Shown here in pieces: positions 9,174 through 12,912 of a stretch of 39,317 nucleotides of DNA. The stretch spans positions 1 to 39,317 of the IMG/VR virus record IMGVR_UViG_3300030104_001243; one strand, written 5' to 3'. Every line of letters starts with the position of its first letter. Positions within the stretch are counted from its first letter, which is position 1. The DNA is from a virus. Made by a program: the position numbers and the translations under genes. The notes below the pieces were generated by a model. That model searched no databases, had not been told where the DNA came from, and worked only from the letters and a program-made list of their open reading frames with translations.

Positions 9174-9428
9174 TTACCCTCCAAAGATGTTGATGATGAA
9201 AGCTAGTGTGTTGTGAAACCCAGAGTAGGCGTAAGGAAGCCAAAGTTCGTAGACGAGTACGGCAACTATGAAAGCCACAAACAAAGCGAACTCTCCAATT
9301 TCTCGTCTGTAAAACTTACGCTTTGCCTTGAGTTCTTCGGCTCGTCTTTTCTCGTTTGCCTCAAGTCTGACTTCAGCCAGACGTTGAGACATAGCAATGT
9401 CGATTTCTCGTGATAGTGCCTTGTTCAT
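9174..9428 (-). CDS. one-helix membrane protein, 84 aa
   Basis: The start at 9428 (MNKALSREIDIAMSQRLAEV) is chosen because GAGAGG is upstream and the ATG overlaps the stop of the 35-aa ORF. The first 45 residues are a charged amphipathic helix; residues about 46-66 are one transmembrane segment (FALFVAFIVAVLVYELWL). A cytoplasmic coiled coil plus one membrane anchor suits an early host-takeover or membrane-associated protein, or a spanin/holin-like factor. It is far from the lysin, so a lysis role is less likely. Confidence 0.65.
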   Translation of the reverse strand: MNKALSREIDIAMSQRLAEVRLEANEKRRAEELKAKRKFYRREIGEFALFVAFIVAVLVYELWLPYAYSGFHNTLAFIINIFGG

Positions 9429-9541: not shown

Positions 9542-9574
9542 AAAAAAATGAGGCCAGACGCATTGTCTGACCTC
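9542..9574 (-). terminator. terminator/attenuator hairpin before the leftward early genes
   Basis: On the minus strand GAGGTCAGAC, 5-nt loop, GTCTGGCCTC (10 bp including one T-G wobble), one A, then seven Ts (9548-9542). Directly after the T-run comes GGAGG and the ATG of the 35-aa ORF. Because it precedes genes rather than ending one, it may act as a transcription attenuator, or end a transcript from the hairpin-rich region to the right. Confidence 0.75.
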
Positions 9575-10040
9575 GTAAGTTTCAGTAACCTAAGAGAAGT
9601 TCGATGTTTCCGTTGCTCTCGCAACGCTGTGTTACAGCTTTTAGGGAATAGCAGTTGCTATGCTTGGTGTGTTTTGTACTACACCTTTGTTGTTTTTCCC
9701 TGACCAGCGATACATTTCTGTTTCTGGCATTTGATTGGCAACAGAGCCTGATAACGCCAACGAACTTCGTTGGCTTTGTACTATTCCAGGTGATGTCTTC
9801 CTCCTTGTATGTTTGGGACGACAGATTTTTGTCGTTTTGGTTAAGTGGTTGATATGTTAGGTGCTAACCCATTGTTCTTGGCCTCGTGGAGAGGTTTTCA
9901 AAACGTCCGAGAAGCCAAAACCCAAGAACACTTCCCTATGAGGGATATACAAACTCAACAAAAACAACGGCTTAGTCGTTGTGGTGTCGAGTTGTTGTCG
10001 TTTTTCTTGGGAAAAGTATGCGTTTCCACATACTCATCAC
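9575..10040. other. hairpin-dense region without a credible gene
   Basis: No ORF here has a good ribosome-binding site and normal composition. There are at least nine short inverted repeats with tiny loops: 9611-9626 (6 bp), 9626-9638 (5 bp), 9649-9660 (5 bp), 9666-9685 (5 bp), 9756-9774 (GCCAACG/CGTTGGC), 9818-9835 (6 bp), 9856-9868 (5 bp), 9933-9945 (5 bp), 9964-9982 (6 bp) and 10015-10034 (6 bp), plus a long-range pair TGTTCTTGG/CCAAGAACA (9873-9881 and 9922-9930). AGGGAA (9643-9648) can pair with TTCCCT (9696-9701) around two of the smaller stems. It is bounded by two minus-strand terminators. It could be a structured RNA, a replication origin or a packaging site. Confidence 0.6.
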
Positions 10041-10073
10041 AAAAAAAAGGAAGGAAGGCTTTCGCCCTCCTCC
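10041..10073 (-). terminator. strong rho-independent terminator of the 120-aa gene
   Basis: On the minus strand a GC-rich stem (GGAGGAGGGC with GCCTTCCTTCC, slightly imperfect) closed by a GAAA tetraloop and followed by eight Ts (10048-10041). It lies 15 nt after the stop of the 120-aa gene, making that gene a monocistronic unit. Confidence 0.85.
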
Positions 10074-10087
10074 CGTGTGTGTGGGGA

Positions 10088-10450
10088 TTATTTTGCGAGA
10101 AGCTCAACGAAAGCCATCACCTGTGCGACTTGAGCTTTGCTCAACTTCGACAATGGGTTGTTCGCAACTTCGAGAACCTTTGCGTCCATGCTCTTGCCTT
10201 TCGCCTTCGCCTTCGCCTTCGCCTTTGGCTTGTCTGCCTTTGCGAAAGCCATTGCGACAACCTCAGAGCCGTCTGCACCTTTGTTCAGAGCGTCAATCGC
10301 CCTTGTGTAGCGAGCGACCCAGCCCTCAGATTTGCCCTCACGATCACGCCTTGCCTCGAAGGTCGAGTAGACGGTTTCGAATTCGACCTCGCCAGCGTTA
10401 TATGCGTCCATGATGTCCTTGATTGATTTGCCGTTTGTTGTAAAAGCCAT
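10088..10450 (-). CDS. 120-aa two-domain protein with Lys-Ala linker
   Basis: The start at 10450 (MAFTTNGKSIKDIMDAYNAG) has a perfect GGAGG at 5 nt spacing. Residues 1-70 are a helical domain with a charged middle (FEARRDREGKSEGW); residues 74-88 are a KAKAKAKAKGK linker encoded by a tandem TTCGCC-type hexanucleotide run (about 10197-10226, plus strand); residues 89-120 are a second small helical domain (LSKLSKAQVAQVMAFVELL). Histone-H1-like Lys/Ala linkers often bind DNA or RNA. Own strong ribosome-binding site and terminator suggest high expression, for example an abundant early or DNA-binding protein. No family is recognised. In-frame hexamer repeats may vary in number between relatives. 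Confidence 0.75.
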   Translation of the reverse strand: MAFTTNGKSIKDIMDAYNAGEVEFETVYSTFEARRDREGKSEGWVARYTRAIDALNKGADGSEVVAMAFAKADKPKAKAKAKAKGKSMDAKVLEVANNPLSKLSKAQVAQVMAFVELLAK

Positions 10451-10603
10451 GCGTTCCTCCGTTTGGCTGATTGATGAAAAAGGAAACCGAAATTTCCAAC
10501 CCATCAAGTTCCCTTATCGCCTACGGGGGGCACACACCCCTTCCCGCCGTTCACGTTTTCCAAGTGTCACCTCCCCCACCCCCAAAACTAATCGGAGCAA
10601 AAA
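10451..10603. promoter_or_regulatory. divergent intergenic control region, G-rich on minus strand
   Basis: Separates the leftward 120-aa gene from the rightward packaging genes. The minus strand has G-runs (GGGGGTGGGGGAGG at 10570-10583) and a GGGG-loop-CCCC hairpin near 10526-10541; there is also an inverted repeat GGAAA/TTTCC (10480-10495). No TTGACA/TATAAT-type promoter is visible in either direction, so promoters here may be read by a phage or modified polymerase. Being next to the terminase genes, it is also a candidate packaging-initiation region. Confidence 0.4.
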
Positions 10604-11077
10604 TTGAAACGTCGAGGCGTATATAAGAAATGCGAAACATGTGGCAAGGAGTTCTATGTCAAAGCCAGTAAGGACGACTGGGTCAAGAATTGTAGCCTAG
10701 AATGTAGGCGAAACGCTCCAGCCAAAAGAAAAAAGCAAAGAGAGTTAGAGGAAATGAAAAAAGTATCAGCTTTAGCTACCAGACATGAGTTAACACCCAT
10801 GCAATCTTCCCAGATCAGAGGCCAGATTGCTGGCTTCGTGCGTAATCAAATAGATATAGCCAATGAAGTAGTAATGGGTGGCACAGATTGGTCGCCAACC
10901 CAGGCTCGTGTCTTCGGTATATTACTTAATAAGGTAGTTCCAGACCTAAACGCCAGCTATGTCCAGCACGAACACAACAATAAGGACGTAATAGACATGT
11001 CCCGTGAGGAATTAGAACGCATTGCCTCTGGTATTGACGCAATAGATGTAAAGGAGAACCCAGATGAGAGTGAATAA
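10604..11077 (+). CDS. Zn-finger protein, probable terminase small subunit
   Basis: Begins with TTG: CGGAG lies 7 nt upstream and there is no early in-frame ATG that keeps the Cys motif. Residues 10-13 CETC and 30-34 CSLEC form a C-x2-C-x16-C-x3-C treble-clef-like zinc finger. The rest is helical, with a segment (TQARVFGILLNKVVPDLNAS, then DMSREELERIASG) typical of phage small terminase C-terminal halves. Small terminases recognise the packaging site and load the large subunit. The position directly before the large terminase supports the call; the zinc finger is unusual and could bind DNA or simply be an extra domain. Confidence 0.65.
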   Translation: MKRRGVYKKCETCGKEFYVKASKDDWVKNCSLECRRNAPAKRKKQRELEEMKKVSALATRHELTPMQSSQIRGQIAGFVRNQIDIANEVVMGGTDWSPTQARVFGILLNKVVPDLNASYVQHEHNNKDVIDMSREELERIASGIDAIDVKENPDESE

Positions 11078-11294
11078 CCCCCAGAAAGAGGCACATCTTT
11101 CCAAGATTGGCGTAGAAGACTTCGGTTATGCCATGAAAAAGCTAGATCTTTCCGTAGTTCCAGCAGAAAAACGTGCAGATGCTATCAAAGATCACCTAAT
11201 GGGTATCATGTCTGAGACAATCCTTAACCCCACTGCACGTTTCGACATAGCAATGGCACGACAGATGTACCGAAAGACAAAGAATGGCGGCTAA
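11064..11294 (+). CDS. hypothetical packaging-region protein, 76 aa
   Basis: Small basic helical protein starting MRVNNPQKEAHLSKIGVEDF. AAGGAG is 6 nt upstream. It overlaps the upstream gene by 14 nt and the large terminase by 11 nt, so all three are coupled. No family is recognised; its place suggests a packaging accessory or a split part of the small-terminase function. Confidence 0.7.
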   Translation: MRVNNPQKEAHLSKIGVEDFGYAMKKLDLSVVPAEKRADAIKDHLMGIMSETILNPTARFDIAMARQMYRKTKNGG

Positions 11295-12912
11295 TACCCA
11301 ACGTGAGGCCGCAAAATACCTACTAAAATTACGAGATGCCCAAGAAAACTTCCTTGGCTTCGTGAAAGTTAACTATCCTGAGTGGGAACTTGCAGATTTC
11401 CAGCTAGAATTAATAGATGCCCTAGATAAACTGGAGAAAGGTACGCTCGGTACGAACAATCTCCTCATTACCATGCCACCCAGACACGCAAAGTCTACAT
11501 TCGGCACGGTTCTTTTCCCTGCATACTTCATGGCTCGCAATCCAGAGAGATATATTATGTCTTGCTCCTATAACTCCCAACTCGCCACAGACTTCGGACG
11601 ACAGGTACGGACAGTCGTGGAAGCCAAGCCCATTCACCAAGCCTTTCCAGACTTTAATCTCTCGCAAGACAGCCGTGCGGCTGATGTCTGGCGTACAGAG
11701 AACGGAGGTGCATACTTCGCAGTCGGTATCGGAGGTACAACGTCTGGTCGTCCAGCAAACCTGCTCCTCGTAGACGACCCCATCAAGTCAAGAGAAGACG
11801 CAGAGTCTATGACCCAACGCAACAAGACTTGGAACTACTACACATCAGCACTAGCCACACGTCTCCAGCCAGAGACAGACCGTACACCCCCAAAGCAAAT
11901 AGTAATCCTAACTCGCTGGCATCCAGACGACCTTGCAGGTCGCCTTATCGAAAGTGACGACTGGGAAGAAGGACGCTGGACGCACGTTAACTTCCCTGCA
12001 ATTAAGAAAACATTATCGGGTAAAAAGATAAGCAGACGTAACCTGCCTGAAGACCACCCCATGTATATCAAGGCTGGCGAACTTCCAAACAATCCGTCCA
12101 AACGCTACATCAAGGAAGAAGAAACAATAGCCCTGTGGCCTGACCGTTTCTCCCTAGAAGAACTACACAGACGGGAACGCCTGAACCCACGAGAGTTCGC
12201 ATCTCTCTATCAACAACAGCCCTACATCGAGGGTGGTAATATAATTAAATCAGATTGGTGGCAGTCATACCCAGAAGATCTTTCCCCAGAAAACTTTCAA
12301 ACCCTTGTAATCGGGGTGGACACAGCATTCAAGAAAACAGAAACAGCCGACTACTCCGTAGCAATAACTGCTGGCATAGACAGGAACGGCGACATTTATA
12401 TCGTAGACATTATGCGAGGGAAGTACGACTTCCCCGAATTGAAACAACGCCTGATCCGTTTGAACAATAAGTGGCGAGGAAAAGGTCTTCGTGCCATGTA
12501 TATAGAAGACAAAGCATCTGGTCAGTCAATCCTCCAAGAACTCAAGCGTGAGTCTGGCATGTCCGTAATCCCCTATAAGGTAGTCAACGACAAGGTAGCC
12601 AGAGTAAACTCAGTGCTTCCCCTTATCGAAGGAGGCCGTGTCTTCCTACCTCAAGCATCATCTTGGCTCGATAGCTTCGTAGACGAAGCGGTAACATTCC
12701 CCAACGGAAACCACGACGACCAAGTAGACGCACTTTCAATAACTCTTGATGTCCTCTCAAGGACATCAATCTCAGTAGACGCATGGGATCTTCAGGGTGA
12801 TGTGGCCCAGTCTTTAAACAATACAAGCGACTTTGAATCTTCTTTCGGTAAATCTCTTAAACTCCGTGTGAGTAAAACATTACCGAAATGGGCAGGGTGG
12901 GGAACTCTATAG
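11284..12912 (+). CDS. terL: terminase large subunit
   Basis: 542 residues, the ATP-driven DNA packaging motor and headful/end nuclease. ATPase domain: Walker A MPPRHAKST (64-72), Walker B LLLVDDP with D164/D165, coupling motif LTRWHPDDLAGR (209-220). RNase H-like nuclease domain: D346 in GVDTAF, E408/D409 in YIEDKASG, D478/D479 and D482 in HDDQVDA, the expected metal-binding acids. All key residues are present and the length is normal. No clear ribosome-binding site precedes the ATG; translation is probably coupled to the 76-aa gene. The next gene is the portal. Confidence 0.97.
   Translation: MAANTQREAAKYLLKLRDAQENFLGFVKVNYPEWELADFQLELIDALDKLEKGTLGTNNLLITMPPRHAKSTFGTVLFPAYFMARNPERYIMSCSYNSQLATDFGRQVRTVVEAKPIHQAFPDFNLSQDSRAADVWRTENGGAYFAVGIGGTTSGRPANLLLVDDPIKSREDAESMTQRNKTWNYYTSALATRLQPETDRTPPKQIVILTRWHPDDLAGRLIESDDWEEGRWTHVNFPAIKKTLSGKKISRRNLPEDHPMYIKAGELPNNPSKRYIKEEETIALWPDRFSLEELHRRERLNPREFASLYQQQPYIEGGNIIKSDWWQSYPEDLSPENFQTLVIGVDTAFKKTETADYSVAITAGIDRNGDIYIVDIMRGKYDFPELKQRLIRLNNKWRGKGLRAMYIEDKASGQSILQELKRESGMSVIPYKVVNDKVARVNSVLPLIEGGRVFLPQASSWLDSFVDEAVTFPNGNHDDQVDALSITLDVLSRTSISVDAWDLQGDVAQSLNNTSDFESSFGKSLKLRVSKTLPKWAGWGTL

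Follow-up and report, generated by a model that had tools for sequence, protein, structure and literature searches.

What is the role of a noncoding, hairpin-dense stretch of DNA beside the terminase genes of a marine phage? The region in question covers positions 9575–10040 of the window—the whole 39,317 nucleotides analyzed here, IMG/VR virus record IMGVR_UViG_3300030104_001243—and lies in the gap that separates gene X from the leftward genes after it; the large terminase gene is about 1.3 kb away. The initial annotation had described about ten crowded hairpins between two terminators and had offered a structured phage RNA, an origin folded as a single strand, or a packaging site as explanations. 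Judged by its TerL, which is 77% identical to that of Roseobacter phage CRP-810, the window belongs to a relative of this phage. CRP-810 is an isolate of a worldwide marine phage family with at least eight subgroups (PMC11288001), and a text search of the same paper found no mention of noncoding RNAs, promoters, terminators, or intergenic elements. BLASTN against annotated phages matched nothing, the nearest-named phages by TerL show 31–35% identity, and a genome scan for prophages carrying the window's terL gave only a match of 33% identity. The neighborhood of the region comprises the following features:

11284–12912, plus strand: large terminase gene (terL; phrog_38, E 1.4e-119), the bait for relatives
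10604–11077, plus strand: probable small terminase gene (terS), directly before terL
10088–10450, minus strand: gene X, the leftward gene upstream of the hairpin-rich region
10049–10074, minus strand: intrinsic terminator of gene X (11 pairs, T8 tail), just before the conserved element
9550–9574, minus strand: intrinsic terminator closing the lower segment, from a terminator scan

The terS gene is named by its position and by the resemblance of its relatives. Its product has a zinc-binding N-terminus and only a weak HNH-family match (residues 5–53), with no match in Pfam. Immediately before terS, positions 10510–10590 hold a conserved GGAGGTGAC together with a GGCGGG...CCCGCC hairpin; this conserved element reads GTCACCTCC on the plus strand and resembles the 3' end of 16S rRNA.

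The excess of hairpins is real. Counting non-overlapping perfect hairpins with a stem of 5 or more and a loop of 3–8, we find 8 within 9575–10040—among them one at 10015–10034 with stem 6 and loop 8, present in the window's clade—against 2.26 ± 1.36 expected from 300 dinucleotide shuffles, none of which exceeds 6. The figure of about ten was hence slightly generous. The folding energy of the minus strand also lies outside the shuffled range, with z −6.1 for 9575–10040, −4.8 for 9576–10035, and −8.6 with both terminators included, and the excess persists in each half taken alone (z −4.1 and −3.3); the plus strand folds more weakly (z −3.7 to −4.5; −3.9 on 9575–10040). Both flanking terminators are genuine and act on the minus strand, and no conserved open reading frame spans the region. 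The further statement that no hairpin carries a T-run is only approximately right, as a pattern scan returns weak terminator-like sites, e.g., 9964–9982 on the minus strand and 9756–9774 on the plus strand.

The region is a composite of two parts and not a single unit. Its upper half, a DNA element, is shared by the whole family, and the lower half is common to the window's close relatives only. The features of the lower half are:

9575–9815, minus strand: clade-specific hairpin-rich segment with hairpins at 9756–9774, 9648–9661, 9626–9638, and 9611–9626
9792–9806, minus strand: ribosome-binding AAGGAGG followed by ATC, a small-ORF remnant; locus L008 has the intact form (with ATG), and indels disrupt it in the window's clade

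Where L008 reads ATG GAG GAA AAC ATT ACT TGG, the window reads AAG GAG GAA GAC ATC ACC TGG, and indels follow later. A hidden open reading frame at 9794–9585 with an ATC start was considered and rejected, as its frame is broken in relatives. We read the lower half as a decaying small gene with local hairpins that ends in the 9550–9574 terminator; it may give rise to a clade-restricted RNA.

The upper half, 9816–9999 on the minus strand, corresponds to an element of about 190 bp that recurs in CRP-810 (57396–57638) and about 90 IMG/VR loci with its place and orientation unchanged. Iterated nhmmer searches starting from the window detect it in 86 of 120 deduplicated loci, some of which are duplicate flanks of one contig, and it also occurs in further lineages fetched later. 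In the terL-fetched loci it always lies upstream of terL on the opposite strand; since terL was the bait, the informative part is its position and orientation near terL only. In most loci without a match, the contig ends too near terL. Real exceptions to a full match are the divergent clade of L147 and L149, in which only fragments of the pattern are present, and the clade of L138, L139, and L141; loci whose TerL is about 33–37% identical gave no match. In CRP-810, the element is overlapped on the opposite strand by gp63 (OR671924, 57299–57544, minus), annotated as a hypothetical CDS and probably spurious. Read along the minus strand, the element runs GNCACA-N5-GNCACA, AA....TTGATTTT, TTT, a CCC....AGGG dyad, ACGTTT, ACAATG, CATTTCAACANCTTA, and TCGTCC, and we divide it into the following blocks:

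9983–9999, minus strand: block A, direct repeat GNCACA-N5-GNCACA (GACAAC...GACACC in the window), its 11-bp spacing fixed in 64 of 64 aligned relatives
9962–9974, plus strand: IHF-type site B, AAACAACGGCTTA, one mismatch to the consensus WATCAANNNNTTR
9933–9945, minus strand: dyad C, TCCCTCATAGGGA, a hairpin kept across the family (z 10.4)
9901–9906, minus strand: block D, ACGTTT, from the alignment of relatives
9856–9875, minus strand: block E, ACAATG followed by a variable dyad (GTTAGCACCTAAC in the window) that is kept as a dyad but not in sequence (z 10.5)
9842–9854, minus strand: IHF-type site F, TATCAACCACTTA, an exact consensus match
9816–9821, minus strand: block G, TCGTCC, invariant in 64 aligned cores

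The invariance of TCGTCC is in part a product of the alignment itself, from which sequences lacking TCGTC were excluded. In almost all of the 64 aligned cores, block G follows the TTA of site F after 19–21 bp, and most gaps between blocks are constant or differ by no more than two bases. Two gaps vary more: that between C and D measures 24–28 or 36–40, and that between E and F 28–29, 18–19, or 8 bp, i.e., in steps of about 10 bp or about one helical turn. Such helical phasing is confined to the E–F gap and does not extend to the C–D gap. Some relatives lack blocks altogether—L130 keeps the D–G half only, and L125, L126, and L128 are without TCGTCC—so that individual blocks can be dispensed with.

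Two of the blocks match the IHF consensus, one on each strand and hence inverted. The distance between them is about 128 bp in most relatives; in the window, whose E–F gap is shorter, it is 107 bp (9854 to 9962). Across 34 non-redundant cores, 9 exact and 30 one-mismatch sites were counted against 0.24 and 5.64 in shuffles, and nearly all of them fall on the two fixed positions, i.e., the consensus is matched above chance at constant places. Among 3000 permuted consensuses only one matched equally well, WATCARNNNNTTA, and this one almost duplicates the IHF consensus itself. L255, an additional lineage fetched later, carries both sites in exact form along with TCGTCC. From these matches we infer candidate IHF-binding sites. 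No HU or IHF gene was found in the phages searched, so that host IHF would be used; the hosts of these phages presumably have IHF.

Is the conserved part a folded RNA or a DNA site? A structured RNA made from the minus strand, either a small RNA or a leader, would agree with the window's own minus-strand folding (z −6.1), with the two minus-strand terminators that bound the region, and with the two kept hairpins, some with UUCG-like loops. The relatives argue against it. Neither strand is favored by folding in 38 of them (mean z −1.9 for minus and −1.8 for plus, some near zero), there is no Rfam match at gathering score, and the consensus fold by RNAalifold is weak (−10.5). An R-scape-like covariation test with a tree-based null gave no significant pair in 50 sequences (best E 2.35); in a positive control, 15, 5, and 3 of 24 planted co-evolving pairs were recovered on the same tree at decreasing rates, which indicates a moderate power at which a slowly changing helix could be missed. 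A pseudoknot between GGACG and CGTCC was rejected, as variants with GCACG, GAACG, or AAAAT in place of the former retain TCGTCC. Moreover, the element is kept where it overlaps coding sequence, which points to a constraint on the DNA: in L075, TCGTCC lies inside a small ORF, and in L141 (3517–4050), the terS ORF sits in mid-element and splits the A–C half from the F–G half. Two segments, dyad C (z 10.4) and the E–F linker (z 10.5), keep a hairpin above shuffles, with z 1.0 to 2.9 elsewhere, and the E–F dyads differ in sequence between lineages. Taken together, the alignments provide evidence for a DNA-level constraint, with the two dyads as an unexplained residue. The structured RNA initially offered as one option fails for the conserved part and is, as a general explanation, improbable; we read the conserved upper half as a DNA control site rather than a conserved folded RNA.

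Which control would be exerted here? In our ranking, packaging initiation is the most likely role and control of leftward transcription the second most likely. We tentatively propose, at somewhat less than an even chance, that 9816–9999 is a cis-acting double-stranded DNA site, an IHF-organized platform beside terS that would most likely serve the small terminase at packaging initiation. Host IHF would bend the DNA sharply at both inverted sites, so that the outer elements, i.e., the GNCACA repeats and TCGTCC, would come to lie near the center; the folded DNA would offer a platform beside terS for a phage protein, probably the small terminase, which would load there and start packaging in the manner of lambda cosB. 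The GNCACA repeats are candidates for TerS-binding repeats. The sequences show conservation, near-fixed spacing, the IHF consensus, orientation, adjacency to terS, and lack of RNA covariation; that IHF and the terminase bind here and that the site serves packaging is inferred. The element adjoins terS and terL in constant orientation, and among the three explanations first offered the packaging site fits location and architecture best. The lineages that lack single blocks and the confinement of helical phasing to the E–F gap count against the proposal.

Physical genome ends within the element were considered and gain no support from contig ends, which do not cluster there overall (p 0.32). In L024, L027, L049, and L061, the contig end (locus position 1) is at most a few bases away from the ACAAT block, where assembly breaks are expected because the linker after it is variable. 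The CRP-810 record opens with an ATG and hence gives no information on physical ends.

The second reading, an IHF-assisted promoter or operator of the leftward early genes, is possible but somewhat less probable. Here, the GNCACA repeats would be regulator sites, IHF would supply the bends, and transcription would begin close to TCGTCC and, in the window's clade, cross the hairpin segment before stopping at 9550. The gene order bears on this. In type A (the window, L009, L010, L013, L075, and L155), gene X comes first and the element follows, with a strong terminator in between where inspected, so that the gene following leftward must have a promoter of its own. A second terminator downstream in the window implies a transcription start between the two, and in L009, L010, and L013 TCGTCC is followed immediately by a ribosome-binding site and an ORF. 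However, no sigma-70-like promoter was found in the region, and in L075 the ATG of the small ORF lies upstream of TCGTCC. In type B, which comprises most relatives, the element comes before motif M3 and gene X; the element thus changes its order with respect to individual genes while remaining close to terS, which fits a site for the whole region better than a promoter of one gene, though it may still be a promoter of the leftward operon. Motif M3, on the contrary, stays with gene starts:

10500–10515, minus strand: M3-like motif AAGGGAACTTGATGGG upstream of gene X, a degenerate version of CCGAAGGNACTTNNNGGGTGAG, the family motif

Throughout the family, this motif is found repeatedly upstream of leftward genes (L089:825–870, L089:1743–1788, and L088:7586–7631 (CRP-810)). 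It often forms a GAA-loop hairpin with another hairpin behind it and looks like a phage promoter or operator. An N4-like virion RNA polymerase using M3 as hairpin promoters was considered and rejected, as none of the large CRP-810 virion proteins tested against Pfam and PHROGs matched a polymerase. One protein of the virion module, the 2016-aa gp35 of CRP-810 (L159:4061–10111), has a sub-threshold match to the ADP-ribosyltransferase domain of polyvalent proteins.

The two dyads also invite a reading as a replication origin, in which they would act as single-stranded hairpins, e.g., for a phage primase-polymerase. IHF sites do occur in several replication origins, both dyads keep their pairing without keeping their sequence (z about 10)—the part of the initial single-strand proposal that survives—and the published CRP-810 annotation includes a primase-polymerase. 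The gene for this enzyme, however, lies far from the element, no link of the element to replication genes was found, and there is no iteron array beyond the two repeats, which makes an origin unlikely. A related idea, which we regard as quite unlikely too, is that IHF bending at the two inverted sites extrudes or exposes the two hairpins of variable sequence but conserved structure, which the terminase or the primase-polymerase would then read by shape instead of sequence; hairpins held in a complex by IHF would thus define the start of packaging or replication.

In the attP of phage lambda, IHF sites are combined with outer repeats, and the IHF-type sites and outer repeats seen here resemble this layout, as would be expected for the attP of a tyrosine integrase. 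The integration site of CRP-810, however, is a 13-bp sequence beside its tRNA-Thr (PMC11288001); this tRNA gene lies at 9328–9402 of its genome, away from the element at 57396–57638. This rules out an attP for CRP-810 only, and we consider such a role highly improbable.

Whichever role applies, the site is a sharply defined DNA target for the family, present in a cultured phage in which a packaging start, a promoter, and an origin can be distinguished. How does it compare with known systems? GOLLD and ROOL are large structured RNAs associated with phages, noncoding and rich in hairpins (cf. PMC12286853). Unlike these, the element is without Rfam match or covariation, and its conserved core of about 190 bp behaves like DNA. 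Further parallels are IHF-organized DNA sites. In attP, transposition enhancers, and early operators, IHF bends the DNA between outer protein-binding repeats; the proposed layout of the element is similar, and in CRP-810 its position differs from the attachment site. In lambda cosB (R3-I1-R2-R1), IHF at I1 bends the DNA between terminase-binding repeats and brings the R sites face to face (PMC4856287). Like cosB, with its spacing-sensitive arrangement beside terS (PMC4856287), the element is a compact site next to terS that combines repeats with IHF-type sites and in which a bend would bring outer parts together. Unlike cosB, no cosN was found and contig ends are unclustered, and two inverted IHF-type sites about 128 bp apart enclose two dyads of variable sequence. 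If the element is indeed a packaging site, it would hence be IHF-dependent with an arrangement unlike that of lambda—two inverted IHF sites around variable dyads.
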